64,000 nt of DNA from Closterium sp. NIES-65 (Eukaryota > Streptophyta > Zygnematophyceae > Desmidiales > Closteriaceae): positions 1,798,001 through 1,862,000 of the forward strand of contig CANXME010002486.1 in NCBI GenBank assembly GCA_948144175.1. Reading direction: 5' to 3'. The position numbers and the translations under genes are program-made. The notes below the pieces were generated by a model that was not told where the DNA came from, did no database searches, and worked only from the letters and a program-made list of their open reading frames with translations. Shown here piece after piece: positions 1 to 47,856 of this stretch. Within the stretch, counting starts at the first letter, position 1; the number at the start of each line of letters is the position of its first letter.

Positions 1-812
1 GCTAGGCGCGTCAGGGACAAAGCCAAGGAAGACACAGGGAATGGTGCGGGAGGAGGGCTTGTCCGCGGACGTATTGCTGACAAAGGCACGAGCACCCCAG
101 ACTCGGAAACGCAACGCATCGCCAACCTCTCCCGTCCAACGCAGTGTGGGCGAGGTCTCCAGCAAGGAGACGCGGGGCCAGAGGTTGAGCTGCTGCGCGC
201 CGTACGGGACCGCAAACGGCCATAGAAAATGGGGAGCCGCCACATGGATCAAAGAGGTACGCGCGATCTCCATGACCAAGCCGATTTGGCGCTCAGCAAC
301 CCCATTTTGCTGCAGTGAGCCCGGAAGCGTGAACGACTGCTCGATGCCCTCCCCCTGACAGAAGGCCCGCAAGAGGTTGGAGGTAAACTCACCACCTCTG
401 TCAGAGTGCAGACGCAGGACAAGAAGGTCTTGGCAGAACCTGCGGCGGAGCTGGAGACGTACTGCTTGGATCCAAGGGATGAGGATAGCAAGGACTTCAC
501 CCTTGGTGCGCAAGGGGAAGACCGTGGTGTAACGTGAGTAGTCGTCGACAACCAGCAGAAAGTACCGCTCACCGCCCTGTCCACGAACGCGGGCTGGGCC
601 CCACACGTCCGGGTGGAGGGTCTGCAGAGGAGCCTCGGTCAGGGAAACGAGGAGGAGTGAGGAGCGGCGCGCTGCCGCCCTTCGACACAAGGAAGGCAGG
701 GCGGTGCAAGGGAGGCAGGGAGGGGAGGGAGAGATCTGGGAAGACCTGACACTAGGAGGCGACGGTGCATGCCATGGAGACGTGGCAAGAAGGGGTGACC
801 CAGGCGGTGGTG
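1..812 (-). pseudogene. Copia A1 integrase core (frameshifted)
   Basis: The minus-strand reading contains the second catalytic aspartate in LHSDRGGEFTSNLL (about 420-370) and the catalytic glutamate in LQQNGVAERQIGLVMEI (about 320-270). Downstream are the conserved blocks PHFLWPFAVPYGAQQLNLW and VFLGFVPDAP near base 20. The glutamate of the DDE triad is intact here, unlike in element B. The frame is broken between this block and the protease frame. Integrase would join the cDNA ends to the host chromosome. Confidence 0.75.
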
Positions 813-1706
813 TCACAGAAGAGTCTTGTGCGACAGGGAGCGACACAAACAAGGGAAGGCTACCTGACCTGACACAAGCACCTGACCAGTAGCAGCTACC
901 GGAGGGGACGCAGTAGTCAGTGTGTAAAGACTCGACCCTGGCCGACGGGTGAACGTAGCCAGGTGACAGCCAGTCCTGGAGCACGTACAGATCCCCACAC
1001 GCTGTCCTCCAGGGGCAAAGGTATCAACCCATGCATCCTGGAGGACTGCGTTACTTACCAGGTTCGTAGAGAACGAGGGGAGGTGAAGACCTGACAGTGA
1101 GCCAGACGGAACCGCCGGGCACGGGAGCACAGTGGAGGACGTGCAAGAACTGGGCCCTGAGGGGTCAGCCAGAGACACTGCAACACGTGCAGGGAGTGGC
1201 GTGAGTGCGGTACTGTTGCAAAAGAAATAGCGGGAAGCACCTGAGTCAAGCGTGGAGGTTTGCAAGGCCTCAGGAGGCGTAGTACCTGAGAGAGCAGACT
1301 CGCTAGCACCTAAGGTAGTAGCCTCACTAGCACCTAGAGCAGCAACCTCTATACTGGGGTCGTACTGCACAGACAGGTAAGAGTCACCCTCAGCACCACC
1401 AGGCAAAGCATACATAACAGTAAGGATGGCGTCATAGTCTAAAGCAAAGACATAAATGCCCGACCTAAGCAGCTCAAGCCAGGGGGGGATCTCAGCCTCG
1501 TCGCCAAACTCTGCATGCCAGGCGTCACTCAAATAGGCGAAGCAGCGGGACTGTGCGTGACCAGGTGTACCACAGGTCTGACCAGCTCGACGACGTGCTC
1601 GAATGACGTACAGACAGCGACTAGGACTCGGAGACGTCCCACGCTGGTAAAGCCACTTACCAAGCTGCTGGGACGTAAGGACCGGACGCCGCCGTAGCTT
1701 CACCAA
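813..1706 (-). pseudogene. Copia A1 gag C-terminus, protease and GAG-pre-integrase
   Basis: The 297-codon frame begins in the end of gag. A degenerate knuckle-like segment (C-x4-G-x2-H-x4-C, as in GTPGHAQSRC) is followed by a conserved block, FAYLSDAWHAEFGDEAEIP. The aspartic protease signature follows as STLDSGASRYFF, then the substrate-pocket region LSGLHLPSFSTNLVS and the GAG-pre-integrase segment (TGCHLATFTRRPGSSLYTL). The frame ends shortly before the HHRLGHP-type motif seen intact in element B. It is part of a single gag-pol polyprotein; protease would cut the polyprotein in the virus-like particle. The upstream gag half is missing or scrambled, so the copy is not functional. Confidence 0.8.
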
Positions 1707-3164: not shown

Positions 3165-3295
3165 TGTGAGAATGAAAACAAGGAATGATTGCATTGAGCA
3201 GCATGAGAAGTACAAGTAGGACACCCTAAAGTGCTGTACCCCATATTGACTACCCCACTACAGCCTAAATAGACTATAGCAGATATAGTTTGACA
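3165..3295 (-). repeat. 3' LTR of copia A2 (about 130 bp)
   Basis: It ends in TTTGACA on the plus strand and is followed by CACCCCCAT, the complement of the polypurine tract. The left edge may be 3165 or 3167 because TGTGAG and TGAG both fit a TG start. The neighbouring five bases to the left are CGCAC; the matching duplication cannot be checked because the other end is lost. Confidence 0.7.
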
Positions 3296-3503
3296 CACCC
3301 CCATAGGCAAAGGGGGAGAACAAGGGGTCACAAGACCAGTCAAGAGAACAAGGGCAAGACCAGGGTGGATCACAACGTCACCACAAAATCTGAGCGCAAG
3401 CACAAGGCCACAAGGTTAGTTCACAAGCAGAGTTATACATCAAGAAGAACAAGAAGAGTATGCATGCAAATGCAGGTATATATAGATCACAGTATAGGCA
3501 AAG

Positions 3504-5639
3504 TCAAGAGGTGAGCAAGTGAGGCCAAGTAGGCACAAGACCCAGCAAAGTACACAAGCGCTGATGATCACAAGGCGGAAGTGCCTTGGTAAACATATCA
3601 GCAGTGTTGGCCTCACAGGCCACGTAAGCAAGGCACAGCTGACCGCGCTGCTGCAGCTCACGAGCAAGGAAGTAGCAAAGAGCAATGTGCTTCGTTCTGT
3701 GCTCCACTCTCTGCTCCCAACACAAGGCCAGCATGGCCTTCTTGTCTACGTACAGAATTGGAGGAGAACTAGGCTGCTCTCCAAGGTCAGTCAGCAGGTA
3801 GGTGAGCCAACGTAGCTCGTGTGCAGCCATGGCCCCAGCGTAGATCTCGGCTTCACAACTGGAACCGAGAACACAAGACGAGCGGGTAGACCGCCACAAG
3901 ACAGAGCCGGAACCAAGGCTGAAGGTGTAACCCTGTGACGACCGCTGCGTAGCCTGGTCGTCAGCCCAAGAAGCGTCTGCGTGACCTGTGAGGACCACTG
4001 GACGTTGCCCTCCAAGCACTAGCCCCATGCTCGACGTACTGCACAAGTAGCGCAACACCCTCTTCGCTGCAGCCATCTGCTCTGGTCGGTGTCTCCCAGG
4101 AGCCACATAGCGTGCAAAGATGCTAAGAGGGTATGCTAGGTTAGGTCGTGTGCAAGTCATCACGTACATGAGGCAGCCAACAAGCTCTGGGTACGGGCCA
4201 CTCGGCTCTACGGACTCATCCGAAGGCAGAGCTGAGAGCGAGTGGCGAGTAGACAGAGGAGTGGCCTGAGGCGAGGAGTACGTGAAGCCGAAGCGCTGAA
4301 GGACCTGCTGCTCCATGTGTGACTGAGTCAGGGTAATGGTGCGCTCTGCTCTGTCCCGAGTGATCTGCAAGCCAAGGTAGCTGCGCAGTTCACCCAAGTC
4401 TGTGCACGTGTGTCTTTTCTGCAGCTCAGACTTCACGTGGGCGAGTCTAGCAGTGTCGGCTGTGGCAAAGACCAAGTCGTCGACGTACACGAGGATGTAG
4501 AACGGCGGCAAAGAGGTGTCGGTGCGCAGAAACAGCGACGGGTCGGCTGTTGAAGGAGCAAACCCAAGAGCCGCAAGTGTAGTCCTCAGTGTGACGTGCC
4601 ACTCACGGGGCACCTGGCGGAGACCGTAGACTGGCCGCCGGAGGCTCCACTGGGTACCAGGAGCAAACGACCAAGTGAAGCCAGATGGGCGACGCAGCCA
4701 GATCTCCTTGTGCAGGCTGCCCTGCAGGAAAGCAGTGCTGAAGTCAGGAGAGTGAAGCTCGTAGTCGCGCTGAGCGGCTATGTGCAGTAGCACCCGAAGA
4801 GTGGTCATCTTTTGGGTGGGAGAGAAGGTATGAAAGTAGTCAACTCCCTGCCGCTGACTGAAGCCTCGAGCCACGTAATGCGCCTTGAAGACAAGCGGAG
4901 AACCCGGCGGTCGCTTCACCCTAAAAATCCACATGCCACTGACGATGTTCGCCCCAGGCGGGGGAACCTCGTCAACGTAGGTGCCTGTGGACTTCCAGGA
5001 AGCCATCTCTGCGTCCATAGCTGCCTGCCACTGAGAAGAGTAGGGACCCTCTATCGCCTCCGCGTAAGAGCGTGGAGTCGGGATGTCAAGTGCATCCGGG
5101 TCTCCCTCAGGGGTAAGCAGTTTGGACACGAGATGAGGTGAAGCAGCAGCCAAACACTGGAACTCCTCCTGCTTGTCCTCGAGGACATCCGTGCCAAGGG
5201 CACACTCACCCTCGATGGACGGAGGACAGACAGACTCAGACTCAGCGACAAGACTAGCAGCGTAGTCTAAACGACAGCGAGTAGCAAATTCGACGAGCTC
5301 AGCAACTAGGGCAAACGCAGCAATGGACTCAAAGGAAGGGTCAGTGACGACAGTAGCAAGGAGATGCGTGACAGTAGGACTGGCAGCACGAAGAGAGTCC
5401 GACTCCGGGTCGGCAAGAGCAGGAAGAGAAGACTCAGGAGGAGAAGGCAAAGGGGCACGCAGAGGAGCAGTGGACGGACGCAGAGACATCTGGTGCGTGC
5501 CAGGGACAGGAGTAGGACGCTGACGCAAACCACGACTACTAGTGCGAGGAGGACGGACAGGCAACGCAGGGCAAGACGCAGGCTCACGACGCTCAGCAAG
5601 ACCTCCAGTAGGACCAGTGTAGGGAGAAGGTGCAGGCAA
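3504..5639 (-). CDS. Copia A2 reverse transcriptase-RNase H polyprotein segment
   Basis: This is an open frame of 711 codons. Residues 1-200 are the Pro/Ser-rich linker after integrase, including EGPYSSQWQAAMDAEM, the usual lead-in to the copia RT. The RT follows with NIVSGMWIFRVKR, SPDFSTAFLQGSL and the active site ILVYVDDLVFA (YVDD intact). Then come the RT tail LGLQITRD and RNase H with LTGHADASWADD, SSCEAEIYAGA and HIALCYFLAREL. It ends shortly before the 3' untranslated region. A conserved position in RNase H reads YVDKKAM where copy B has YVDNKAM. The RT would copy element RNA into cDNA in the particle. Although this segment is open, the element lacks its 5' half and cannot move by itself. 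Confidence 0.85.
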   Translation of the reverse strand: MPAPSPYTGPTGGLAERREPASCPALPVRPPRTSSRGLRQRPTPVPGTHQMSLRPSTAPLRAPLPSPPESSLPALADPESDSLRAASPTVTHLLATVVTDPSFESIAAFALVAELVEFATRCRLDYAASLVAESESVCPPSIEGECALGTDVLEDKQEEFQCLAAASPHLVSKLLTPEGDPDALDIPTPRSYAEAIEGPYSSQWQAAMDAEMASWKSTGTYVDEVPPPGANIVSGMWIFRVKRPPGSPLVFKAHYVARGFSQRQGVDYFHTFSPTQKMTTLRVLLHIAAQRDYELHSPDFSTAFLQGSLHKEIWLRRPSGFTWSFAPGTQWSLRRPVYGLRQVPREWHVTLRTTLAALGFAPSTADPSLFLRTDTSLPPFYILVYVDDLVFATADTARLAHVKSELQKRHTCTDLGELRSYLGLQITRDRAERTITLTQSHMEQQVLQRFGFTYSSPQATPLSTRHSLSALPSDESVEPSGPYPELVGCLMYVMTCTRPNLAYPLSIFARYVAPGRHRPEQMAAAKRVLRYLCSTSSMGLVLGGQRPVVLTGHADASWADDQATQRSSQGYTFSLGSGSVLWRSTRSSCVLGSSCEAEIYAGAMAAHELRWLTYLLTDLGEQPSSPPILYVDKKAMLALCWEQRVEHRTKHIALCYFLARELQQRGQLCLAYVACEANTADMFTKALPPCDHQRLCTLLGLVPTWPHLLTS

Positions 5640-5651
5640 AGGGGAGGCCGG

Positions 5652-6403
5652 CTATAACTGTAACTGTGACGGGATAGGCTGTGGACAATCTAAGGGTGGA
5701 GGAGGACCAGTAGAAGGCGGGAGACCAAGAACCTGCTGAAGGAGTGGAACGAAGTACGGCCGAGGCTGCTCGGCAACTCCAGACACAGCAGGGACAGCAC
5801 CAGCACCCCCAGCGGCAGCACGAGCGCCAGCAGCACCTCCAGCTCTAGTACCTCCAGCAGCACCAGTAGCACCCCCAGCAGGACCGCCTCCAAGACCAAC
5901 AGCAGTAGCCTCAGCGCCAACACCCTCCGCAGCTCCAGCTCCACTCGCACCCGCAGGCCTAGCAGCTCTAGTACCTCCAGTACGAGCACCTCCGGGACCC
6001 GCGGCACCAGCACCCTCAGCAGCCAAAGAACCTCCTGCTCCAGCAGCACGCCTCCTGCGCCGGGCAAACCACTCGCACAACTCCTATGGAGAAAGTGGCT
6101 CTCGCCGAGACGAAGCACCCAGAGAACCTCCAGGCCCAGCACCGCCATACGCCACACGAGCAGGCCCAGCTCTCTCAGACTCCGCACCCCCAGGCTCAGC
6201 ACCTCTAGACGTAGCACCCCCAGGCTCGACACCCCCAGGCGTAGCACCCCTAGGCTCAGCACCCCCAAGCTTAGCACCCCCAGTCTCAGCACCCCCAGTC
6301 TCAGCACCCCCAGGCTCAGCACCCCCAGACGTAGCACCCACACGTTCAGCACCCCCAAAGTCAGCACCCCCAGGCTCAGCACCCTCAGCAGCACCAGAGT
6401 CAC
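5652..6403 (-). pseudogene. Copia A2 repeat linker between integrase and RT
   Basis: The region encodes a low-complexity linker in several broken frames. In one frame (about 6341-6084) it consists of Gly-Gly-Ala-Glu/Thr-Pro-type pentapeptides encoded by 15-bp units of the type GGCTCAGCACCCCCA on the plus strand. Next to it lies a Gly/Ala-rich stretch (about 6080-5652). The same linker with other repeat numbers is present in copies B and C. No catalytic motif is present. Confidence 0.65.
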
Positions 6404-6478
6404 TAGTGACCTCGACAGGCTCGACTGCCTCTACCTAGGACACACGTGAAGGTGCTGGACCCTGAGGGGGGAGGGAGT

Positions 6479-6743
6479 CTACCGGGGGGGGACCTGGTAC
6501 AAGGAAGAGCGGTGGCGAGGGGAGGGACGGAGTGCGGTAGGGGAAGAGGCGGTAGTAGGGGACCGACTCGTCAAGCGTGACGTCCTAGGAGGACAACCAC
6601 CCTGGCGCGTCAGGGGGGAAGCCAAGGAAGACGCAAGGAGCAGCACGAGGGGACAGCTTGTCCGCAGACAAGTCGCGGACAAACGCCCAAGATCCCCAGA
6701 CACGGAACGCAGACGCATCGCCAACCTTCTCCGTCCACAGCAA
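6479..6743 (-). pseudogene. Copia A2 integrase C-terminal fragment, truncated
   Basis: The reading contains VGDASAFRVWGSWAFV and CVFLGFPPDAPGW, the conserved block that follows the integrase core in this family, then decays into the linker. Homology to the family stops at about 6743, in the codons preceding GDAS. Everything upstream of that point in the element is missing, which marks a truncation breakpoint against host DNA. Confidence 0.7.
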
Positions 6744-6996: not shown

Positions 6997-7295
6997 CTGC
7001 AATCATAATGTGTGCTACGGTATAAGTTTTTCAAGCGCGTTTGGTGAATTGGGTGCTTTGGCACATGTCTTCCTCTGACTCCCCCTCCCTCCCCTCCTCT
7101 TCCCTCCCCACCCCACTTTCCCCCCAACATACACAGAGCTGGCCTCTGATATGCCTACCAATCTATAGAGAGCTTGATTTGAATATCTTGGGCAGAGAAT
7201 ACCCAGCAAATTCTTTTATGTCAGATAGAATCATGCCAAACACAATATGTGTGCTGAGGAACTATATGTACAAGGTCATGTGTAGTGCAGCAGCG
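6997..7295. other. Non-coding gap between host exon and gypsy D
   Basis: About 300 bp with a pyrimidine-rich run (CCCTCCCTCCCCTCCTC at about 7082-7100), possibly the branch and polypyrimidine region of an intron belonging to the 6829-6996 exon. No protein motif or repeat was recognised. Confidence 0.4.
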
Positions 7296-7851
7296 TGTTG
7301 CGAGTTAAGCCAACGGACAGCAAGTGTATATAATGTATATTTGTATAGGCAACTGAAGCAGAGAAGTACCGAGGACAAGGGGATGAGGTTCGGATGATGG
7401 CTGGGTGTAAGATGGGGAAATACGTCAGCGGGAGGCAGCATGAGGCAAAGAGGGGATGTGACAGTTGGAAGGAGCTACTTTGTTTTGTGTGTGATTGCAT
7501 GTTTCGTTTCCTTGTAGGCTGGATGCCCGAGCCAGCTGGGGTTACAGCCACAAGTTGGAGGTTAGGCAGATGGGCGGCTAAGTGCTGGTGGCAAGAGGAC
7601 AGGAGGATGGCCCTTCGCTTCGGTGGGGGGACCATCTCCTCCAAGGGACACAGAGGAGTAGCAATAGGGGGAGGAGGCCGGCAAGAATATAGGGGGTATG
7701 GGCGTTTGACTTGGCATTGTTTGTATGTTCTATAAATCTCATGTGATTGCTTCAAGCTCGAGCACACGTGAGGCAGCAGGCCATAACAGACAGTAGGGTA
7801 GGCGGAGAAGTATGTGAGGGAGAAGTGTGAGTAAGCCGAGTGGGCTTTTCA
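7296..7851 (+). repeat. 5' LTR of gypsy D (about 556 bp)
   Basis: It begins TGTTGCGAGTTAAGCC and runs to GAGTGGGCTTTTCA, all repeated at 15431-15987. The exact right edge is uncertain: a TGG that could start a primer-binding site lies inside the shared segment (TGGGCTTTTCACATAC), so the true LTR may end about 10 bases earlier. A TATA-rich block lies near its start. Confidence 0.8.
7322..7346 (+). promoter_or_regulatory. TATA-like block in gypsy D LTR
   Basis: AGTGTATATAATGTATATTTG is kept in the 3' LTR (about 15458-15480) and, diverged, in the LTR of the related element E (GTATATATTTTACATG). Its position near the start of the LTR fits a retroelement RNA polymerase II promoter. No start site can be shown from sequence. 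Confidence 0.4.
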
Positions 7852-8108
7852 CATACAAACAATCTAGATGCAGTAGTATGCAGACGCGTGGTGGGACTGA
7901 ATACGAGCTAGAAGCCTCGTTTGTGAATTCGGAATCGACGTCGTCGGGAAAAACATGAAGCATGAATCAAGGGACAGAAACGAGGGAGGAGGAGGCGCGC
8001 GATGATGGCCCGCCTAAGCGGGATGTCGAGAAACCGGATCGGCCGGGGCGAGAGGAGAAGGAGGACATCGGAGCTGTGAAGAAGGATGCGTGATCGGGAG
8101 AAAGGCCG

Positions 8109-9190
8109 ATGCGCAGCGCGGAAGAGGATCGTTCGACCGGCTCCTATCAGAGGAGTGCGTCGTGGCAGGAAGAGGCGTCAGAGCAGCGGTGGAAATATAT
8201 GCTGCTGCCGAAAATCGAGGTTACGGAGCATTCTTCGGGGGATACACGACGAGCGCCGTCGATCAAGAATTACGTGATGCAGTTGGGCGATTTGCGGGCG
8301 TGGTGGGAGAGGGATCGTTTGGACCCAAAGGAGTTATTCCGAGGCCTCGCCAACACCTTGACCGGGGAAGCGGAAACTTTCTACCGCATCAGTCGGCGGG
8401 AACTACTGGAATGGACAGTTTGAGCGGCTCTAGGAGAGCGGGATCCCACAGTGCGCTTCCTGGGCATGCTTGAAGACTAGTTCCCAGCGCAGACACCCGA
8501 GAGAGTGACGGAGTTCAGGGAATTCCACCGCAGAACGGGAGAATCACTGCTGGCGTACTACGGAAGATTGGTGGAGCTAGCTGAAGACATGAGCTGCCAT
8601 GATACGGGACGGCTCGTCAGTAAAATTTTGAATGGGCTGCACTATGAACTACGGCGTGATGTGGCGGTTTGCGTCTTTGAGATGGGGGCACGAGCGACGA
8701 TAAAGGAGGTGTACGAACTTATGAAGCATGTGGAGATTGGTCGTCGGCTGTGTGAAATTGAGGCAACAACGGAGAAGGGAGGCGAAAAAAGGAGGTCAGC
8801 CTGGTTAGCGACTCCAGCAGAGCGGGAGAGGCCACCCCGCATGGCAGGTGACGAGCGCCATTGTCACAACTGCGGGCAGCCGGGGCATCTACGGAGGGAG
8901 TGTTGCAACCTCTCCGGCTTGCTCCACCTGTGGAAGCGAAGAGCACCTGAGGCAAGATTGCCCAAACGCACTGGTGTGTGAGCATTGTGGGAGGAAGGGA
9001 CATCAAGACAAGGACTGCTACGCAACCAGGTTAGAAGGGAGAATGAGGAAGGATCCGGAGGACGTGAAGGCGCAAATCGCGCGTTTGCAATGGCAGCTGG
9101 AGGAAATGGAGGGGCAAGAGCAAAAAGAACAGCGATGTTGGCGAGATCAAAGGAGGAGGACGAGGAAGGGAGTGAGGCCAGCTTTGCCCT
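8109..9190 (+). pseudogene. Gypsy D gag with three CCHC zinc knuckles
   Basis: The reading starts with MRSAEEDRSTGSYQRSASWQ and continues with the capsid-like region GLANTLTGEAETFYRI and MTEFREFHRRTGESLLAYYG. It is broken by a TGA at 8421 and a TAG near 8478 and by a frameshift near 8890. Three nucleocapsid zinc knuckles follow: CHNCGQPGHLRREC, CSTCGSEEHLRQDC and CEHCGRKGHQDKDC, then a coiled, Glu/Gln-rich stretch (IARLQWQLEEMEGQEQ). The related element E (47548-46958) has an open version of the capsid part, which shows the stops here are secondary. Gag would form the particle and bind element RNA. Confidence 0.85.
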
Positions 9191-9207
9191 GATGGCATGC
9201 CCAGTAC

Positions 9208-9717
9208 GTGAGAGAGGCGATCTCGGTTTACGATCGCGGCACCGATACTTTCCGCAAGATCCCCCAATACATGAACAAGGTTCAAGAATGGATACTGCAG
9301 AGGCACGAGCTCTTGGGGCGGCACGATGACACCCCCTTGGAGAGAATGGCGTGTCAGCCATCAGTGCTGGTGGTGGAGCCGGGAGTGATGACAGTGGGCG
9401 GCGTCAAAGTCAAGCAGACGATCTTGGACACGGGTGCCCACAACGTACTGATTGGTGCGCCCATGGCAAGGCTGCTGGGCTTGGACAGAGAGGATAGAGT
9501 GTTAGCGGAAGGCTACTTGCTTATGACCGCAGAAGGGGGAACAGCTATGTGGATGCCGAGGACCCGCAACACGGTGGAAAAAGTGATTCGACCCAGACAC
9601 CAGGATGAGTGCATAGTGAGGATGTACTGCGGTGTGTCAACGTCTGAGGACTATGACTTACTGCTGGGGGTGGAGTATCTGTTCGCAATCGGCACCGTGT
9701 GTGGGAAGAGCGGCTGA
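9208..9717 (+). pseudogene. Gypsy D aspartic protease
   Basis: The frame has the retropepsin signature QTILDTGAHNVLIG followed by MARLLGLD and a C-terminal DYDLLLGVEYLFAIG, which fits the second conserved block of the fold. It is in a different frame from gag and ends in a TGA, while the neighbouring frame carries on as RLMYRVTYWEHDNSLAELP into the methyltransferase, so a frameshift near 9705 separates them. In the ancestor protease and methyltransferase were probably one polyprotein. Element E has the equivalent IIDTGAHPVLIG. Confidence 0.82.
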
Positions 9718-10982
9718 TGTACCGGGTGACTTACTGGGAACATGACAACTCGTTGGCAGAACTGCCAGTGTGGTTCATGAGAAGGGAACCAAGGTAGGCG
9801 TACCAGGCTATGGAGAAGCCGCTGGAGGAAGAGCTAGGAATCATGACCTGGAAGGAGATGGGACTGACAGAATCTGCAAAGAAGCAGTACGAAGACATCT
9901 GGGGAGTCAGCGATAACCTGCACGAACAAGTCCTGAACTTGAGGGTGTTGCAGAAGCCGCTGGTGGTGCTGGAGTTATACGGAGGAATCGCTACGGGTCT
10001 AGCGGCAGTACTGAAGGCAGGCCACGCTGTGGCCAAGTATTTGTATGTGGACAACGACGGTGACGCTAACTTGATGGCATGGCAGCACCTCAGGCTACTA
10101 AAGGCCAGGTACCACAAGCTGAGCTGATGGAGGAAGCCGCGGAAAGAGGAGCGGAGTGGCTGTGCAGGGGGGTGGAGGAGATTGACGACGACCTTCTTGC
10201 AGAATGGGGAAGGATCGACCTAGTGATTGCCGGATGGAGCTGTCAAGGGTTTTTGCGAGCCAAGAGGGGCAGAGGCATGGGAGATGCGAGGAGCGCTCAG
10301 TTTCGGGACCTGGTGCGAGTGCTGAAGATGATCAAGAAACGGCAACGAGAGGTGGCTTATATCATTGAGAACGTGGACATGGCAAATGATCCAAGACCGG
10401 CGGTACGGGCGGCCAATGAAGAGATCACTGAAGAGCTGGGGGCAGGAGTAGCGTGGGATGCTGCACAGAATGAGAGCAGGGCTGACAAGCCAAGGCGGTA
10501 TTGGCAGAACGTCATACCTGAGGCAGCGCTGAGATACCAACCATTGCAGATGGAACGACCAAGGGCGAGACGAGTGGAGGATATTTTGGAGCTAGGAAGG
10601 TTGGCGGCACCAGTCACAGAAGAAGACCACCCCCACAATACCCGTGCAACAAAGTGGGAGAGCCAAGGCAAGCCTGGCCGACGCTGGTGGCGCACGAGAA
10701 CGCAAGGGGCTTCAAGGAAGTCAGAGGGGTGGCTGGCCCGGGTATGGTGTACGATCAGGCGCAAGGATTGTGGGAAGAACCCATCGCGCAGGAGCAGGAG
10801 TTGGCCATGGGTTTCCTGGCAGGAGCTACGGCTTATGAGCAAATGTCAGAGAAGGACAGGAAGGCGCTGGGAAGGGCGATGGATCTGAATGCTCTATACT
10901 GGCTATTCGTCACCATGGCTAACCACTTGGAGAGGAAATGGCTGGAGAGGCGGATCAGCAAGGCAACCTTAATCAGGCCATA
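9718..10982 (+). pseudogene. C5-cytosine DNA methyltransferase domain within gypsy D pol
   Basis: Three consecutive frames (9810-10110, 10079-10640, 10654-10982) together give one methyltransferase of about 390 residues. Motif I (AdoMet binding) is VLELYGGIATGLAAVLKAG near 9965-10020, close to the DNMT3/DRM form. Motif IV with the catalytic cysteine is DLVIAGWSCQGFLRAKRG near 10217-10270; the usual Pro-Cys is Ser-Cys here. Motif VI is YIIENVD near 10357-10378. The C-terminal part has AWPTLVAHENARGF, a motif IX-like QEQELAMGFLAG and a motif X-like ALGRAMDLNALYWLF. It would transfer methyl groups from AdoMet to cytosine in DNA. A TAG at about 9796 and two frameshifts (near 10110 and 10650) inactivate this copy. 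It lies between protease and RT in the same orientation, so it is part of the element and not a passing insertion. Confidence 0.87.
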
Positions 10983-11185
10983 GACGCGGCTGGCGACAGA
11001 CAAGGAGACAGAGGCTCGGACAATGCTGGGGGGGACTGGACGAAAAGGAGGAAAACCAGTGGTGGAGGGGAATTTCGGAAGAACGCAGGCGCGCAAGCTA
11101 GAGGGATCACCGAGAAGCTATCCCAGGGAGATATGCTGACCCGTCGGAGAGTGAAGAGGAATGGGAGGGGGAAGAGGAAGAGGAG

Positions 11186-12637
11186 ATGGAAGAAGAATCG
11201 GGGGCAGGCAGGGGTGACACCCCAGAGGAGTTCCACGACTCAGATTTCGACATGGAAGGAGATTACTACAACCCACCAGACGAGCCACCCATAGGGCCAG
11301 TGTTCATGGGGTTGGACGTCACCCCAAGTGAGGCGGAGCAGCAAATGCAAAGGGAAGAAGGGGCGGACGGTGGGGAAGAAGTCACGGTAAGGGGGCACGC
11401 TGAAGAGCGGCACACGTGGGATGTGGGAGAAGGACTACAAGGGGAATAGCGCAGAGCGGTGGAGGCTTTGCTAGCTTCCCACCGGCAGACGTTTGCTTAC
11501 ACCCTGAAGGAACTAGGATGCTGTAACTGCGTAGTCATGATGCTCAACCTGACCACAACAGTGCCAGTGTACCAGAGGAGGCGCCGAATGAGCCTGCAAG
11601 ACCTGGAGGTGTGTAAGGAGAAGTTTCTAGAGCTGTTAGAGGCGGGGCTGATACGCCGATCAGAATCCAGCTATGCGGTGGCGACAGTGGTGGCTGCCAG
11701 GATGGACCTGACGGGGACCGTGCTCTCCTGACGCATGTGTGGTGACTACAGGGACCTGAACAAAGTCACCATACCGGAAAGATACTCTACTCCAATTGTG
11801 GACGAGATTTTTGACCAGCTGGCAGGAGAGCGGGTGTTCTCCACACTGGACATGAGACAGGAATTGAATTAAATTCCCACTGCTGAGGAGGACAAAGCTA
11901 AGACGGCGTTCCACGGGCCAGATGGGGCGTATGAGTGGAACAGGATGCCCTTTGGTCTCAAAAACGCGTTGCTGCTATTCCAGAAGGTGATGGACGCGGT
12001 GTTACAAGGAATGGAAGGGGCGCTGTGCTACATCGACAACGTCATCGTGTTTAGTGCGTCAGCAGAAGAACACATGAATCGCCTCGCCGAGGCACTTCAG
12101 AGGATAAGGGAGGCCAGGTTGACATGTCACCCTGAGAAATGTCGCTTCCGACATACCACAGTGACGTATCTGGGGTTCGAGGTAATTGGAGGGAAACTGG
12201 CAATTCAGAATGTGAAGGTGGCCATCCTCGACCGCGTGGCGCAGCCGATGGATAAAAGCGCCCTCAGGGTGCTACTGGGGTTTCTGAATTACTACCGGAA
12301 ATTTGTGGAAGGTTTCAGCAGGAGGGCAGCACCGTTGAACAAGCTGCTGAATTATGACGTTAAGTGGCAGTGGGGGGAGCCTCAGAAGTCAGCACTGAAG
12401 GACCTAATGCGAGCCGTGAAGGAGGGCGTAGTGTTGCAGTTGCCACGGGCGGACGTGCCCTTCGTCCTTTACACGGACTGGAGCAGCACGGGCATGGGAG
12501 CCATTCTAAGCCAACAGGAGGGAGGGGAGGACAAGATGGTGGCATTCGTCAGCCGCTCATACAACCCAGCAGAGGCTAACTACTCCTCTTACGAGGGTGA
12601 AGGGCTAGCGTTAGTTTGGGCAGTGGGCCACTTTTGA
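11186..12637 (+). pseudogene. Gypsy D reverse transcriptase and RNase H
   Basis: An acidic linker (EEFHDSDFDMEGDYYNPP) leads into RT: ALLASHRQTFAYTLKELG, CGDYRDLNKVTIPERYSTP, FSTLDMRQELN, RMPFGLKNALLLFQKVMDAV. The active-site motif reads CYIDNVIVFS where gypsy RTs have YIDD, so the second metal-binding aspartate is asparagine. The connection and RNase H start with LLGFLNYYRKFVEGFS, FVLYTDWSSTGMGAILSQ and YSSYEGEGLALVWAVGHF. Stops interrupt it at 11729 (TGA) and near 11870 (TAA); all segments stay in one frame. RNase H continues, frameshifted and with stops, to about 13020 (HRSGKNM, DGLSRNPPAMAPE). Confidence 0.88.
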
Positions 12638-13026
12638 GTTTAGCTGCAAGGCAGGCCTTTTACGCTGGTCACGATCATCAGCCTTTGCTGTGGCTGATGC
12701 AGAACCAAAGCCTCACGGGGAGGAACGCAAGGTGGGCAATGAAGTTGTAGGAGTACCAATTCGCTATTCGTCATCGCTCGGGCAAGAACATGTAGCACGT
12801 CGACGGCTTGTCCAGGAATCCGCCGGCAATGGCGCCGGAGATGGCACTGGCAGCTATGGTGTCAGATCTCATTACCCCGCTTTGCAGGGAGCAGCACGCA
12901 GGAGCGATGGATGTGTGGGAAGACCAGGAAACTTTAGCATGGCTAAAGGGCAATATGGCTGAGGGAGCGGTGGTATCAGCACGAGCAAGGAGCAGGGGGC
13001 AACACTACCGCTGGTACTAGAATCAG

Positions 13027-13869
13027 GTGCAAATCCGAACGCAGGACGGGTGGAAGCGAGTGCCTGAGCCGAAGGAACGGGAAGGAGTGATACAAGAGGT
13101 GCATAACAAGCTAGGGCACTTTGGCCCGCTTCGCACGCAGCAGCTACTGCAGACAGGGTGGTGGTGGGCAGGGATGCATCAAGAGATTAAGGATTGGGTG
13201 GCCAGGTGCCCGGCGTGCATCAAGAACCGCGCGGCGTTTGAAAGGAGTAAGGCTGAGCTGCAGCCACTGTTAGTCGTGGGGCTGGGGTATCGTTGGTCCT
13301 TGGACCTGGTGGGAGAGTTGCCACTAACCAAGCGAGGGCGGCGATATGTGGTGGTCATGATAGAGCACGTGAGCAAGTGGGTGGAGGTGCGCGCAGTGAG
13401 CCACAAGACGGCGGAAGAGGTGGCAGACGCCTTTGAAGAGCAGGTGCTGACTCGCTTTGGGGCATGCGGGGAAGTGCTGATGGATCAGGGCACGAAATTC
13501 CAAGGAGAGTTTGAGGAGCTGCTGGCCTCGTGTCTGATCCCTCATCGCACCACATCGAGGTAAAATCCGCAGAGCGACGGGCTTACGTAGCGGCTCATTT
13601 AGACCTTGAAGCAAAGGCTGCGAGCCTGTGGAGAGACAAGGAAGCGGGATTGGGACAGGCACCTTCACTGGGTCATGGCCGGATACAGGTTCAGCAAGAA
13701 AGCGGCCCTTAAGGACCTATCCCCGTATCATCTGCTCTTTGGCACGGAGGCAGTTCTTCCGGTGGGAGCACCACGAGTACTGACAGATGTGATCACGGCT
13801 GGCTCATCCGAGAAGTGGGCAGCGCTGGCGGGTGTCCGAGGGGAGTACCTGTGGCGCCTGCTGTTATAG
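13027..13869 (+). pseudogene. Gypsy D integrase
   Basis: The zinc-binding HHCC domain is visible as VHNKLGHFG ... WWWAGMHQEI ... CPACIKNR. The core has the first aspartate in YRWSLDLVGELPL and the second in VLMDQGTKFQGEF. The third catalytic residue should follow in NPQSDGLxE; here the sequence reads QSDGLT followed by TAG at the glutamate position, so the DDE triad is broken. A TAA precedes it. Reading resumes with LHWVMAGYRFSKKAALKDL and YHLLFGTEAVLPVGAPR. The frame ends at a TAG at 13867, and the reading can be traced further to about 13950 with more stops. Confidence 0.85.
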
Positions 13870-13949
13870 TCTGCAGTCCACTTAGGGGTCGCGGATGCCC
13901 ATGAAACTGCCTAAGTAGAAGCTGATGACTTCAAACCGCCTCTGTGCAA

Positions 13950-14935
13950 AACACTATCACGACCAGCTCCAATAATATACGAGGCTGAAACTTGGACAGC
14001 AATTATCCTTAGGTGTCTGCTTTCAAACGGTATATTATTTGCTACTATCAGAGGTGTACGCACTACGCAGTGAACTAAAACGTAAGCTCGGCTGAAAATC
14101 GTGTATTCTCATTGATGCAAGGAAGAGGTGAGTACAACATTGCCTAGGGGACTCTTAAGGGGTTGGGATCATCCTAGGAACTCAGAGAAGGTTGAGTCCT
14201 AGGGTAAAAAGGCTAGAGAAGGATGGGAAACGTCATAGCTAGGTCAGCAAAGCCAACCACACATGGATGTTCAGAGCTGTACTCAAGGCAACCAATTGTG
14301 AGTCAAGCCAACCATGGGTCAGCTTGTCTTCCCACTTGCACCCTCTTGCAAGCTGATTCCAGGAAGACCACACTTCTCAAAAGGAGGGTGGTAGAGTCCC
14401 ACTTGACCACTTGTACTTCTTGTCTCATTCTCTGTCCCTGCACCATTGGCATGACAACAATGAAAGGGTGGCAAGGGAAATGCTGCCAACAGTGCACCAT
14501 GACTACGGAACAGTGACTTTCGACAGCTGTCACGCAATGCTCCGATATTGGATCGCTCTGAAACTTGGTAACCACCTGAAAAAAAAAGCAAAGAAAAGCC
14601 AGACCAAATTTCAGACGAATCAAAGCTTGATAGACGAGTCAGCAGCCGAAATGGTGAACTCGGGTGTTACCAAAAAAGAGTAGCACACACTTCCGGGATG
14701 CCATAAGTCTTGAAACATAAAATGTTGCCTTGGTAGCTGCTTCAAATACTCTGAAACTTTGAGGGTTTGAATTACACATGTTGAACAACCTCCCCACAAA
14801 ATTCCAGAATCTGAGCAGGCTTGTAGGCCGAATGGGAGTGCGATGACCGTGCCACTGTAATGTGTTGGCACAACACCTGCTCCCAGCGGCGATAGAGAGT
14901 TTGCATGTCACCCAGCTACGGGATATTCATCGCTA
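13950..14935. other. About 1 kb of foreign DNA inside the gypsy D integrase tail
   Basis: Integrase-like reading fades after DDFKPPLCK near 13950 and resumes with IHRYRQ and ALQQGQELYSRRPKKDRLDAG at 14925-15015. The sequence between is less GC-rich and gives no recognisable protein. I could not define terminal inverted repeats or a target duplication. It may be an unclassified insertion. Confidence 0.45.
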
Positions 14936-15245
14936 CAGGCAGTGACAGGAGCATGGGGCTGGCAGGACGCCAGCAGCTTTGCAGCAGGGACAGGAGCTGT
15001 ACAGTCGCCGCCCCAAAAAGGATAGGCTAGATGCGGGGCTGTCTCATCAGTGCTGGACTGTCAAGGAGATTCGTGACTCAACGGTGTTGGTGCTGGAGAG
15101 CGAGGCTGGGGTGTGAGCGGTGGACCACATTACTAATGTTGCCCGGGCAGGAGGCAAGGCAGCAGCATATCAGGGTCCCGTGACCAGGGCAAGGGCAGCT
15201 CAAGGTCACGGGAGGGGGCAAGGAGATGTCAAGCGCTAGGAGCAA
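14936..15245 (+). pseudogene. Gypsy D integrase C-terminal tail
   Basis: The reading contains ELYSRRPKKDRLDAG, LSHQCWTVKEIRDSTVLVLE and, after a TGA, VDHITNVARAGGKAAAYQGP, ending in DVKR*EQ*. The type of tail, a basic SH3-like module with VLVLE, fits gypsy integrases. A second copy of its last residues at 15988 onwards reads DVKRQEQ and stops, without the premature stop seen here. Confidence 0.6.
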
Positions 15246-15430
15246 TGAGGTCAATACCAGCTGAGGAGAGGAACCTATCTCAGAGAGGGACAACGAGAGA
15301 ATCATGGAGAAAGAAATACAGTGGCATCAAGGCAGAGAGGGAAGGCAGCGCAGGGGCCTTGCAAGAAGGAAGAGGGAGAGCCACTTGGAGAGGAGCTAGG
15401 GCAGGAAGAGGTAAGGGAACTTCCGACAGC

Positions 15431-15987
15431 TGTCGCGAGTTAAGCCGAACGGACAGCAAGTGTATATAATGTACATTTGTATAGGCAACCGGAGCAGAGA
15501 AGTACCGAGGACAAGGGGATGAGGTTCGGATGATGGCTGGGTGTAAGATGGGGAAACACGTCAGCGGGAGGCAGCATGGGGCGAAGAGGGGATGTGACAG
15601 CTAGAAGGAGCTACTATGTTTTGTGTGTGATTGCATGTTTCGTTTCCTTGCAGGCTGGATGCCCAAGCCAGCTGGGGTTACAGCCACAAGCTGGAGGTTA
15701 GGCAGATGGGCGGCTAAGTGCTGGTGGCAAGAGGACAGGAGGATGGCCCTTCGCTTCAGTGGGGACACCATCACCTCCAAGGAACACAGAGGAGTAGCAA
15801 TGGGGGAAGGAGGCAGGCAAGAATATAGGGGGTACGGGCGTTTGAATTGGCATTGTTTGTATGTTCTGTAAATCTCATGTGATTGCTTCAAGCTCGAGCA
15901 AACGTAAGGCAGCAGGCCATAACAGACACTGGGGTAGGCCGAGAAGTATGTGAGCGAGAAGTGTAAGTAAGCCGAGTGGGCTTTTCA
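15431..15987 (+). repeat. 3' LTR of gypsy D (about 557 bp)
   Basis: It starts TGTCGCGAGTTAAGCC and matches 7296-7851 throughout. A purine-rich stretch, GGGCAGGAAGAGGTAAGGGA, lies shortly before it and may be the polypurine tract. It is followed not by host DNA but by a second copy of the element's 3' internal end. Confidence 0.8.
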
Positions 15988-16195
15988 AGGGGATGTCAAG
16001 CGCCAGGAGCAGTGAGATCAATACCAAGTGAGGAGAGGAACCAATCTCGGAGAGGGACAACGAGAGAATCATGGAGCAAGGAATACAGTGGCATCAAGAC
16101 AGAGAGGGAAGGCAGTGCAAGGGCCTTGCAAGAAGGAGGAGGGAGAGCCAATGGGAGAGGAGCTAGGGCAGGAGGAGGTAACGGGATTTCCGACA
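15988..16195 (+). repeat. Remnant of a tandem second gypsy D copy
   Basis: The 208 bp after the 3' LTR repeat 15219-15426 with scattered substitutions, from GATGTCAAGCGC to TTTCCGAC. That segment is the last integrase codons plus 3' untranslated region of the element. The order is therefore internal end, LTR, internal end again, with no second 3' LTR. Confidence 0.75.
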
Positions 16196-17227: not shown

Positions 17228-18236
17228 TGTCAACGGGAGTGTTGTGTGGCCCTGTCCTCCCTCGGGCAGAGCCGACCTTGTGGTTGGATGTGCGGGGGAT
17301 ACAACCAACCTACAGCAGTGGGCACGGGGGCCACTGCAAGGGCGTCGAGCTGGAGGGCGCCTGGCTGGAGGGCGCCGAGCAGAAGGACGTTGTCCTGGAC
17401 ACCTGGTCAACGTCTTGAACGCCTGAACGGTGTCCTGGGAGGTTGGACGCCGACCTAGGCGTCTGCACAGCTACCTAGGTGCCTGGACGCCGACCTGGGC
17501 ATCTGGACGGCGTCCTGGGCGCCTAGATGGCGTCTTGGGAGGCTGGACGCCGACCGGGCGCCTGGACGCCAGCCTGGGTGACCGGACGTCGTCCTGGGCG
17601 TCTGGACGCCGGATCGGGGACGCCGGGCATGTGTGGCCAGCTACGAACTGAACTGATCAACTAGGCGTGGTTGCCCGGTGGACCGGGATACCCGGACGAC
17701 GTGTGCGAAGGTCGGCGGGGTGGAATCTGCAAGGCCGACCTCGGAAGTGGTATCCTGAGGTCGATGTGGCTGGTGGGCACAGTCGCTGGCGTGGAGTCCA
17801 CTAGGTGTGTGCGCTGTGCTCATGACAAGGTGTGGAGCACCAACCAGCTGCACGCACCTGCAAAGCAGGTGCACTGTTGTTTTGCGAGTGCAGCGCTGTG
17901 CAGCCAACTTGCTCCAGCGTTGGCATACCGTGGACTTGGAACGTTGACGAACCGCTGCTCTGCAATGCTGTAGCGGTGCGAGCGCTGCTGCGCTGGAGCG
18001 CAGTTGACCATGCTGCGCTGGATGTCGACCAGCAGCCTAGCTAGCTCAGATATAGTATGTGATGCCAATGTTGTTTGCTATCATTGTTGTGATGTTTTCC
18101 TAGTGAAACTCTTACTAATTCTCCTCGTGAAGTAGCAAGTAGCGTGAACACAAGAAACAACTAAGGAACGAACGCAGAGATCAATCTTGCCCCGTGCTTA
18201 GCCCGTAGTCTACCTCCTGTTGATGTTACCTCCGCA
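17228..18236 (+). repeat. 5' LTR of copia F (1009 bp)
   Basis: It starts TGTCAACGGGAGTGTTGTG and ends CTCCGCA. The middle (about 17400-17620) holds degenerate repeats of CTGGACGCCGACCTGGGC type. The primer-binding site would start with TGGTGTGGTGAGC at 18237, which agrees only in part with initiator tRNA-Met. Confidence 0.85.
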
Positions 18237-20100: not shown

Positions 20101-20121
20101 CTCGTCTCGGCGGCGGGGGAC

Positions 20122-20841
20122 GTGCTTGGTCAGTCGACATACTCCGGCCAGGTCCTCTGCACCGACCTTCGACCCTGCTCGGGAAAGCTGACGCCGACTA
20201 TGACGGAGGTGGTAGCTCTGCGAGTAATCGTCTCAGCGACGAAGTCAATGCCGAACCGACTGCATGCGAGGCTCACCCACATTGGCATGGACACCATCCG
20301 AAGCTCGGTGAAGCACGAGGTCGCCACTGGGCTGGACCTCAAGTCGGAGTTCGGCGCCAACTCACCGTGTGTCTCCTGCGTCGGCAGGAAGCTGGCGCAG
20401 CACAACTTCCCCGACATGGGCTCGGACGCCAAGGACGCCCTGGCCGTCGTGCACATTGACTTGTGCGGGCCGTTTCAGGTGGCGGCCAAGGACGGAAGCC
20501 TTCACTTCTTGCTGCTGAAGGACCGCAAGACCTGCTATGTGTGGGTTACGCCAGTCGCCAAGAAGTCGGACGTGCTGCTAGAATTCCATAAGTGGCTGGT
20601 GTTGGTAGAGAGGCAGGCAAAGAAGCCGGTGGTGATGCTGTGCTCTGACCAAGGCAAGGAGTTCACCGCCTTCGTGGTCAGCAAGGGGATCGTTCACGAC
20701 CTAACCTGCCCCTACACCCCGCAGCAAAACGGCATGGCGGAGCAGGAGATGCGGACGGTGGTGGAGTCGGTGTGGACGATGCTACTGCATATGGGTGTAC
20801 AGCACCACTGGTGGCACCTCGCTCTGCGGCAGGCCGTCTAG
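20122..20841 (+). CDS. Copia F GAG-pre-integrase and integrase core
   Basis: HARLTHIGMDTIRSSV and CVSCVGRKLAQHNF supply the HHCC zinc-binding region. The catalytic core has the first aspartate in VVHIDLCGPFQ, the second in MLCSDQGKEFTAF and the glutamate in YTPQQNGMAEQEM, so all three acidic residues are kept. A stop after LALRQAV ends the frame, but the reading continues with TPYQLLIGKKADLLLVRVWG to about 20970 and then decays. Confidence 0.85.
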   Translation: MLGQSTYSGQVLCTDLRPCSGKLTPTMTEVVALRVIVSATKSMPNRLHARLTHIGMDTIRSSVKHEVATGLDLKSEFGANSPCVSCVGRKLAQHNFPDMGSDAKDALAVVHIDLCGPFQVAAKDGSLHFLLLKDRKTCYVWVTPVAKKSDVLLEFHKWLVLVERQAKKPVVMLCSDQGKEFTAFVVSKGIVHDLTCPYTPQQNGMAEQEMRTVVESVWTMLLHMGVQHHWWHLALRQAV

Positions 20842-46230: not shown

Positions 46231-46740
46231 TCAACAACAATCCCTCTTCTATCTTTTCTTTGGGCCTGTCTAGCTGCAACTATTCCGCAAGCCTTTTCCC
46301 AATGAGCACTGGGTGCGCCCCAGTGTCTATGATCACCTGCTTCACCGAGATGGCCCCCACAGTGATGTATCCCTTTTCTGCCACCAAGACGGATGATGCG
46401 CAGCTGAGTCGCTCCAGCGGGTGGCGACACGGCGGGTGTTGCTTTTCTTCTGCTTCCGCCCTCCTCCTTGGGCCTAACTCCTTCCCTTCCTCGTTTTGCG
46501 GCCTCATGTTTCCTCTCCTTCAGCTTCAATCCCAGCTCTTCCCTATCCCGTGCTGGCCTTGCCATCAGGCATAATTCTTCTTCGCTGCTTTCCTCCTCTC
46601 CCCCCCTCGCCACCATAGCCTGCATCCTCTCGCTCCCCGCCTCGCGTCCTTCTAGCTGTGCTTGTAACCTCTCTATTTCCGCCCGCATCTCTGCCATCTT
46701 GCTCCTCCTACGGTTGTCTCCCCAGCCTTCTCCCCTTCAT
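46215..46740 (-). pseudogene. Gypsy E gag end and protease
   Basis: The first frame has the coiled MAEMRAEIERLQAQLEGREA, EEESSEEELCLMARPARDR; after a frameshift near 46430 the protease reads VKQVIIDTGAHPVLIGKRLA. Homology ends shortly after, at a TAG, and the element is truncated. D has the corresponding SEASFALMACPVRERGDLG and TILDTGAHNVLIG. Confidence 0.78.
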
Positions 46741-46957
46741 GAATAGCAATCCAGGTCCGCGTGCCCTTTAAGTCCACATTTACCACTCACCGCTGCCTCC
46801 AGGTAGTCGCGCCTCAAACGGTCCTCTTGTCCGCAGATGGAACACGCCGGTGGGTTGCAACACTCCTACCTCAGATGCCCTGACTTACCACAGTTGTGAC
46901 ACTTTCGCACATTCGCGGGTCCTCTCGGCGGCCGGTCTCTTCAACTGGCGCCGCACT
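46740..46957 (-). pseudogene. Gypsy E zinc knuckles
   Basis: The reading VRKCHNCGKSGHLR, a stop, ECCNPPACSICGQEDRLRRD and CGLKGHADLDCYS gives three knuckles in the order of D. The second has lost its last cysteine (Tyr), and the third has lost its first. Confidence 0.7.
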
Positions 46958-47548
46958 CTAGGTTGGCCTTTGCCATTCTGGCACTTGCTCTACCGTGCAC
47001 TCCACCTCAAACAGTCTTCTCCCCATCTCCACCCGCTTAGCCGCCTCGTAGGCTTCCCTTAACGTTGCATTTTCTCCCAGGTCAGAGATCTTCACTTGCA
47101 CGTCATGCTGCAGCTCGTAATTCATTCTGTTTAGGAACTTGTTCATGAGTCGGCCCTCAACGAGGCGCCCGTAGTACGCCAGCAGTAATTCCCTCGGTCT
47201 CTTTCTGAACTCCCGGAACTCTACAACGCACTCTGGGGTCTGCACCGGGAACTGCTCCTTTAGTATGTCAAGAAATTGCACCGTCGGATCCAATTCTCCT
47301 GGCCTTCCTCTTGCAGCCCATTCCAGTAAGTCCCTCATGCAGATGCGGTAATAGGTTTCAGCTTCTCCCGTCACAGTATTCGCCAGTCCACAAAAAAACT
47401 CATCCGCCACAAGGCGATCTCTCTCCCACATTGCCCTCAGGTTCTCCAGCTGCATTAGATAGTTCTCCAGGGAGGGTTCGCCGCGTGTCTTGCCTAAGAA
47501 CCTTTCTGGGACCTCCACCTTAGGGAGCATCGTGTAGCGCCATCGCAA
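46958..47548 (-). CDS. Gypsy E gag capsid region
   Basis: This is an open frame of 196 codons: MRWRYTMLPKVEVPERFLG, ENYLMQLENLRAMWERDRLV, GLANTVTGEAETYYRICMRD, PECVVEFREFRKRPRELLLA and AAKRVEMGRRLFEVECTVEQ. It aligns along its length with D gag and crosses both positions where D has stops. A more N-terminal part (AYQRSASW, about 47600) has a stop. Confidence 0.8.
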   Translation of the reverse strand: MRWRYTMLPKVEVPERFLGKTRGEPSLENYLMQLENLRAMWERDRLVADEFFCGLANTVTGEAETYYRICMRDLLEWAARGRPGELDPTVQFLDILKEQFPVQTPECVVEFREFRKRPRELLLAYYGRLVEGRLMNKFLNRMNYELQHDVQVKISDLGENATLREAYEAAKRVEMGRRLFEVECTVEQVPEWQRPT

Positions 47549-47856
47549 GGACGTTGCCTCTTCTTCCCAGCCCTACCAGGACGCGCTCCGCTGATAGGCT
47601 CGCTCGCCCTGCTTGCCGGCCCCGCCAACCATTCCTCCTTCCTCTGGCGTGGGCCATGCCACACCGTCCTTGGTCGCTCCCTTCTCCAATTTGTGTGTCG
47701 GATCGCGCTCCTCATCCAAGCCCATGGCTCTCTCCCGATTCGCCGCGTTCTGTCTCTCGGCGCCCTACGTCTCCGCCCCCTGGCTATTGTCATTCTTTCG
47801 ATGCGTAATCCAATCCGTATCTCGTGGGCATTCCCTCCACTAAGATTGCTTGTATG

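Follow-up and report, generated by a model that had tools for sequence, protein, structure and literature searches.

The segment from 7291 to 16195 of the window, a stretch of 64,000 nucleotides from Closterium sp. NIES-65 (contig CANXME010002486.1), is a retroelement in decay, whose Gypsy-type Pol includes a C5-cytosine methyltransferase (DNMT) placed between the protease (PR) and the reverse transcriptase (RT). The domain is identified as a methyltransferase with its motifs in unrearranged order, it occupies the same position in the Closterium relatives with visible neighbors, and the window element has split terminal repeats (one copy). The best joint explanation, in which we have moderate confidence, is that the segment is an inactive copy of an element with a DNMT3-like enzyme, whose intact copies would methylate their own cDNA. 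Since cytosine methylation is a main host weapon against retroelements, elements that carry it themselves give a direct handle on this arms race. The kind had so far been characterized in one charophyte and in dinoflagellates, and is now found to be diverse in Closterium, which belongs to the algal group nearest to land plants; chlorophytes have homologues with another domain order.

Layout and decay of the window element

Three protein searches, in each of which the best 8000 candidates were scored, gave 16, 97 and 62 matches and thereby 150 distinct related proteins (P numbers below). Using Pfam and tblastn with these relatives, the domain order of the window element was determined as PR-DNMT-RT-RNase H (RH)-integrase (IN), with a gag region containing CCHC knuckles in front. 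The features of the element, and one further fragment of the same clade, are as follows.

7291..7851, + strand: repeat A1, left terminal repeat, TG end at 7296 (by eye); 94.1% identity to A2 over 562 columns
8277..9338, + strand: gag region with CCHC zinc knuckles (tblastn with P0011, P0127 and P0138), with stops and frame changes
about 8858-9020, + strand: CCHC knuckles of gag, three by eye, one zf-CCHC stretch at E=2.9e-05
9355..9702, + strand: aspartic protease (PR), frame 1, DTGA motif; 84% identity to the PR of P0011 over 114 aa
9699..10121, + strand: PR-DNMT linker and methyltransferase motif I (ELYGGIATG), frame 3; 75.7% identity to P0001 over 140 aa
10121..10654, + strand: methyltransferase motifs IV (GWSCQG), VI (IENVD) and VIII, frame 2; 79.8% to P0001 over 124 aa
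10573..10959, + strand: methyltransferase motifs IX (AWPTLV) and X (ALGRAMDLNAL), frame 1; 66.7% to P0001, 73% to P0010
10960..11413, + strand: acidic linker from DNMT to RT; partial matches to P0001 378-582 (11129-11746) and P0010 134-297 (11225-11737)
11414..12367, + strand: reverse transcriptase, frame 2, with stops; PF00078 E=9.6e-21 (11873-12637), RT of P0127 60% over 189 aa
12371..12756, + strand: RNase H; PF17919 E=1.5e-23, 69-75% to P0122 and P0127
13021..13881, + strand: integrase, H2C2 zinc finger and DDE core (rve), stops inside; PF17921 E=4e-17, PF00665 E=9e-12, IN of P0122 62% over 196 aa
13882..14870, + strand: stretch of ~1 kb splitting the C-terminal part of the integrase, unmatched by the eight relatives used; P0122 resumes at 14877-15203
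14871..15218, + strand: C-terminal tail of integrase/pol, frame 3; 47% to P0136 and P0122 over 110-121 aa
15219..15428, + strand: repeat B1, starting in a purine tract (GGGAGGGGGCAAGGAGA); 90.5% identity to B2 over 210 bp
15427..15987, + strand: repeat A2, pairing with A1, with B1 and B2 adjoining it on either side
15986..16195, + strand: repeat B2, right end, closing ...TTCCGACA; B1 is its sole other long copy in the window
46232..47620, - strand: second, truncated gag-PR fragment, from another subfamily of the same clade (tblastn with P0007, P0008 and P0009: 64-72% identity, one piece 52%)

The Pol order PR-RT-RNase H-DDE integrase of Ty3/Gypsy elements is present in the window element and likewise in the relative P0127; the Gypsy assignment of the RT is based on RVT_1 and RT_RNaseH matches only. 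The PR matched PF13975 at E=0.00021, which is under the cut-off of that profile. No tyrosine recombinase was found by Pfam in the four ORFs tested within 14217-15469, and the rve and H2C2 domains are present instead. The stretch 13882-14870 is probably a later insertion; only short, mostly imperfect inverted repeats were detected in it, and the ORFs tested there gave no Pfam domain.

Stops and frame changes were found in the gag, DNMT, RT and IN regions, and the window copy is considered dead because its DNMT is spread over three frames. The initial annotation had the methyltransferase read through from the protease frame, which proved incorrect: the PR lies in frame 1 (9193-9714), after which the coding frame shifts to 3 for the linker and motif I (9699-10121), to 2 for motifs IV-VIII (from 10121 to about 10650) and back to 1 for motifs IX-X (about 10573-10959).

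Split direct repeats are the layout of DIRS/PAT elements. The repeat order of the window element, A1 ... B1-A2-B2, is split in this DIRS-like manner and is combined with a DDE integrase (one copy for both statements). By eye, the B1/A2 junction reads CCGACA-GC-TGTCG and contains a 12-bp palindrome, linking the two ends of the element via 2 bp; A2 begins with TGTCG and A1 with TGTTG, B2 ends with CGACA, and the element ends are TG..CA. There was no B copy beside A1, and searches for further A or B copies in the window gave only short matches. The ordinary LTR pair expected of Ty3/Gypsy was not found in the window copy, and we therefore use the label 'Gypsy-type Pol' rather than calling it a plain Gypsy element. 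The flanks AGCG and AGAG (by eye) agree at 3 of 4 places, which is too weak for a target-site duplication.

The repeat order might also derive from an ordinary LTR element that was rearranged, for example by insertion of a two-LTR circle opened inside the LTR or by partial deletion. Only one copy was seen, and the purine tract opening B1 might represent the PPT of a regular LTR in which B precedes A, both of which suit such a rearrangement; however, the borders of the repeats complement each other with a precision of a few bases, the window holds no additional long A or B copy, and Klebsormidium nitens elements are described with DIRS-like repeats and Gypsy domains (PMC5890265). We regard this origin as rather unlikely.

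Between the repeats, 31 substitutions were counted in 560 columns of the A pair and 20 in 210 of the B pair, of which 6 and 2, respectively, are CpG transitions. The observed/expected ratio of CpG is 0.69 in the element and 0.67 in the window. This CpG depletion and the CpG transitions are as in a methylated host genome, and they do not tell the source of the methylation apart.

The fragment at 46232..47620, whose nearest matches P0007, P0008 and P0009 are further Closterium proteins, ends at PR residue 56 of 114 and is therefore uninformative on the DNMT. Several other repeats were observed in the window. Three related stretches (3210-6595, 25031-27621 and 40168-43575) share 88-90% identity, and the first two contain a Copia-type RT (RVT_2) on the - strand; further Copia-type integrase pieces lie at 1-1023 (-) and 20101-20838 (+). 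Arrays of a 15-bp tandem repeat at 6123-6422, about 28103-28308 and 43112-43368 are located in or beside the Copia-type elements and are common to the copies. A dense tandem array with offsets in multiples of 9 bp (self-comparison), open in several frames, was found at 56507-56953, and a stretch of ~1 kb is repeated at 17228-18202 and 36657-37598 with 86% identity.

Relatives and two domain arrangements

The listed sources of the 150 relatives are Closterium (55 proteins, from NIES-53, -54, -65, -67, -68 and Naga37s-1), Scenedesmus (2), Tetradesmus obliquus (2), EukProt (2) and jgi, ena, lgn or unnamed ncbi entries (89). The closest among them to the window DNMT is P0001 with about 80% identity. 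For the trees, we used only proteins with a DNMT match of at least 210 aa (87 of the 150; 86 without P0150). In the 88-row tree, a branch with an SH-aLRT of 100 separates the window together with 33 Closterium rows from the remainder, and the same Closterium clade was obtained with an SH-aLRT of 99 in a 101-row tree with 12 outgroup rows (quick method in both). This placement points to Closterium or a near relative as the most likely host, as far as such algae are represented in the protein database. The predicted DNMT-carrying elements are diverse in Closterium, with many subfamilies.

To assign the domain order, we compared the proteins by BLASTP (E up to 1e-4) with individual domains taken from P0119, P0122, P0127 and others. 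The DNMT stood alone in 98 of the 150 proteins, had a PR before and/or an RT after it in 36, and had an RNase H before and/or an integrase after it in 16. The PR-DNMT-RT group comprises 35 Closterium proteins and the metagenome protein P0078, and the RNaseH-DNMT-integrase group comprises P0084 from Scenedesmus, P0099 from Tetradesmus, P0103 from EukProt and 13 metagenome proteins, with no Closterium member. Nearly complete examples are P0127 (CCHC-PR-DNMT-RT-RH-H2C2) and P0119 (RT-RH-DNMT-H2C2-rve).

A PR, RT, RH or IN neighbor was recognizable in 35 of the 55 Closterium relatives and in none of the other 20, and all 35 had PR before and/or RT after the DNMT. The initial annotation had turned to other copies of the family as a check on the domain, and these 35 of 35 carry it at the same place as the window copy; all were retrieved by the DNMT query, with which DNMT-less copies are out of reach. 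They also bear on the idea that the methyltransferase is a fragment of a host or bacterial gene inserted into the element rather than a part of it. Nothing beyond the frame changes within the window copy speaks for it. All 35 Closterium relatives in which a neighbor was recognized have the DNMT at the same position in pol, and the single protein model P0127 holds all of CCHC-PR-DNMT-RT-RH-H2C2; these observations refute the idea, and its remaining probability is negligible.

Two of the 35, P0143 and P0137 from Closterium NIES-54, have Copia pol domains joined to PR-DNMT or DNMT-RT and are probably nested elements or fused gene models. In P0104 (ena), a Pol of the DNMT-integrase type, a PHD finger follows the integrase (PF00628 E=1.2e-8), so that one polyprotein would combine a DNMT with a possible chromatin reader.

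A third DNMT clade, consisting of metagenome proteins, seems to have the PR-DNMT-RT arrangement as well: the N-terminus of its member P0034 matches Closterium PR ends (best E=1.6e-11), and P0078 is a further case. On the 88-row tree, a single change of arrangement separates 21 PR-DNMT-RT rows from 12 RNaseH-DNMT-integrase rows, a result that only repeats the clade split because all PR-DNMT-RT rows on this tree are from Closterium. The identities of DNMT and RT were correlated over 99 pairs with a rho of 0.91, the pairs not being independent. For the 32 pairs across the two arrangements, DNMT identity was 0.31-0.46 and RT identity 0.31-0.42. Such similar values would fit one old association of the two domains with later relocation of the DNMT; they do not prove it because the comparison was made among DNMT-bearing relatives only, with no DNMT-free ones included.

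Identity of the methyltransferase and its motif IV

A C5 methyltransferase between PR and RT, as the initial annotation had proposed, was confirmed by tblastn, in which the DNMT of P0001 matched 9951-10947 with a best E of 1.4e-79 (82% over 56 aa, 80% over 124 aa and 66% over 134 aa). The coordinates given there (9718..10982) are right. The motifs named there were recovered as well, with I, IV, VI, VIII, IX and X all seen in the usual order. The profile search suggested at the same time had a divided outcome: PF00145 on the window (10070-10888) stayed under the cut-off (E=0.0011, 18.9 bits against 22 bits; E=0.0022 for the read-through translation), while several relatives exceeded it, such as P0003 with 29.3 bits and P0024 with 50.5 bits. 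PF00145 gave no match in P0005 and P0007.

When a 45-row profile of the family was compared with PDB, DNMT3A ranked first at 1.7e-24 (90 bits), followed by DNMT3B at 2.7e-21 and DRM2 at 1.8e-11 (47 bits), with HhaI (2.6e-6) and DNMT2 (about 1e-5) among the lower matches. With fair confidence, the enzyme can be predicted to be DNMT3-like because DNMT3A is the best match among solved structures and the motif order I to X is unrearranged. DRM enzymes, the rearranged type of plants, have motifs VI-X preceding I-V. A DRM-type enzyme was accordingly rejected on motif order and on 47 bits for DRM2 against 90 for DNMT3A, so that only the first half of the earlier label 'DNMT3/DRM-like' was retained. 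The suggested capture of a host de novo enzyme would be consistent with the DNMT3 affinity. Pfam detected neither an ADD nor a PWWP domain in the relatives scanned.

A bacterial-type enzyme was also rejected on its weaker score, although the lead of DNMT3A is modest: the best ORF among the 86 fetched prokaryotic and viral loci listed reached 74 bits against 90 bits, using profiles of the same alignment. From genome contigs, the best 80 of 193 relatives were taken; these are ordinary prokaryotic methyltransferases by title, and some served as outgroup. A search of the phage collection gave no match, and among searches of viral contigs one was without a match and the others gave six loci (L001-L006) with short methyltransferase stretches only. 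In the 101-row quick tree, DNMT3A is placed with weak support beside the retroelement rows and opposite the 12 prokaryotic/phage rows, on a long branch of three segments that carries a long-branch warning.

One relative, P0150 (ena, 1541 aa), has a DNMT3-like domain (best PDB match DNMT3A, 4.9e-7) with no other Pfam domain and is distant from the retroelement DNMTs; it is possibly a cellular enzyme.

To our knowledge, the Pro-Cys (PC) of motif IV is near-invariant in C5 methyltransferases, and it is present in DNMT3A (PDB match). We say 'DNMT3-like' because it is missing in the window and in the Closterium proteins with a recognized motif IV. Motif IV was recognized by pattern in 119 of the 150 proteins; at least one of the 31 without a recognized motif (P0018) has PC. 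The residue before the catalytic Cys was E in 30, S in 3 and D in 1 of the 34 Closterium proteins and P in none, whereas in the 85 non-Closterium proteins it was P in 72, E in 11, L in 1 and D in 1. In the window copy, Ser precedes the catalytic Cys, and Leu replaces Ser three residues past the Gln, a change shared with P0036; its motif VIII has ADK where the family consensus has AHR. The P/non-P state changed at least seven times on the tree (a state could be assigned to 79 rows, among them the window, and the alignment retained the motif column). Among the Closterium rows covering each site, the catalytic Cys is kept in 25 of 25, the motif VI Glu in 30 of 31, the motif VIII Arg in 24 of 26 and the Trp in 25 of 27, and the motif VI Asn is more variable (N in 23 and H in 8 of 31). 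Many rows are near copies, and all of these residue counts are not independent.

Since none of the 34 Closterium proteins with a recognized motif IV has the Pro, the usual C5 chemistry cannot be taken for granted. An enzyme altered to EC, SC or DC in motif IV might act on another substrate (RNA or an RNA-DNA hybrid) or merely bind DNA, a possibility favored by the lack of Pro in 34/34 Closterium proteins against 13/85 of the others and by the repeated changes of state on the tree. The retained Cys, Glu, Arg and Trp would be odd for a mere binder, however, and we judge such an alteration improbable in comparison with a DNMT3-like C5 methyltransferase.

A broader reading, which we put forward tentatively and consider doubtful, would join these observations. 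An old green-algal Gypsy-type lineage may have been built around a DNMT3-like enzyme that moved within Pol and repeatedly lost the Pro of motif IV, throughout in Closterium. The EC/SC-type enzymes would then be C5 methyltransferases without PC, perhaps with a changed substrate such as nascent cDNA, an RNA-DNA hybrid or RNA, and the elements, with split repeats and a DDE integrase, would represent a distinct replication type.

Possible role and comparison with known systems

In the explanation that we favor, intact copies would make the methyltransferase within Gag-Pol, and the enzyme would travel in the virus-like particle alongside RT and integrase and mark newly synthesized double-stranded cDNA, either ahead of integration or during it. 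A copy marked in this way could arrive resembling methylated host DNA, which may protect it against recognition or damage or allow it to define its own chromatin state. The split repeats with their end-to-end B1/A2 junction may act as a splint or circle junction in replication, a proposal based on the DIRS replication model.

The same enzyme might instead serve self-limitation, in which genomic copies of the element or its cDNA would be marked by the DNMT, the host would silence them and survive, and the element would spread slowly. De Mendoza et al. 2018 (PMC5890265) considered this possibility, and it would suit the presence of the DNMT in many Closterium subfamilies, but selection on single elements should oppose self-silencing, and we consider it unlikely next to protection of the cDNA, although the data here would fit either. 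What the element gains from its DNMT becomes testable with copies that have the enzyme and copies that do not, and the Closterium family supplies a natural series of methyltransferases with changed motif IV.

Methyltransferase-bearing retroelements were mentioned in the initial annotation as known from charophytes and dinoflagellates, in agreement with what PMC5890265 describes. Acquisitions in the dinoflagellate elements SymbioDIRS-Dnmt3 and SymbioLINE-Dnmt were independent of that in K. nitens according to its authors; these elements resemble ours in having a cytosine methyltransferase domain inside a retroelement, but are DIRS elements with a tyrosine recombinase, or LINEs. SymbioDIRS-Dnmt3 of Symbiodinium is reported to methylate CG in yeast, whereas the K. 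nitens Gypsy DNMT gave no methylation there, a result its authors call inconclusive (PMC5890265). Retroelement DNMTs, that of KnitGypsy-Dnmt3 included, are described as being under purifying selection (PMC5890265), for which a Ka/Ks below 0.2 would be the criterion in this kind.

Animal DNMT3A/3B, the former being the best PDB match, share with the algal domain the motif order I to X, the GIATGL motif I, the catalytic Cys and the Glu of an ENV-type motif; they differ in that the algal motif IV Pro is replaced and the algal domain is embedded in Pol. The RNaseH-DNMT-integrase elements (P0084, P0099, P0103, P0104, P0119 and others) likewise have a Gypsy-type Pol and a DNMT 31-46% identical to that of Closterium, but it lies between RNase H and integrase and its motif IV is mostly PC. 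Those of chlorophytes may be partly known, given that a review mentions both green algae and charophytes as hosts of Ty3/Gypsy and DIRS retrotransposons encoding DAM and DCM, the kind per group being unstated in the text available (PMC6338049).

The Closterium family and its changed motif IV were not found described. Our literature search gave no paper on DNMT-bearing elements in Closterium, which is weak evidence as most subscription journals were outside its scope. The available text of the Closterium genome paper (PMC10407611) has no occurrence of gypsy, LTR or methyl, and 'Closterium' is absent from the main text, as available, of PMC12344493, which cites DNMT3 embedded in retrotransposons from the 2018 work but gives the element type as LTR Copia instead of the Gypsy of the original paper.

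The nearest known system is KnitGypsy-Dnmt3 of K. nitens, a Gypsy element whose Pol contains a DNMT3-type domain and whose repeats are DIRS-like although its domains are those of Gypsy (de Mendoza et al. 2018, PMC5890265). By its published description, it shares with the window element an unrearranged DNMT3-type domain in a Gypsy-type Pol, DIRS-like repeats and a charophyte host; the difference is the algal class, Closterium being a zygnematophyte, and no protein named K. nitens was among the 150 relatives listed. Because a DNMT3-like domain in a Gypsy-type Pol, the unrearranged motif order and the DIRS-like repeats are common to both, the window element, as judged from its sequence, is of the KnitGypsy-Dnmt3 kind published in 2018, now in another algal class.
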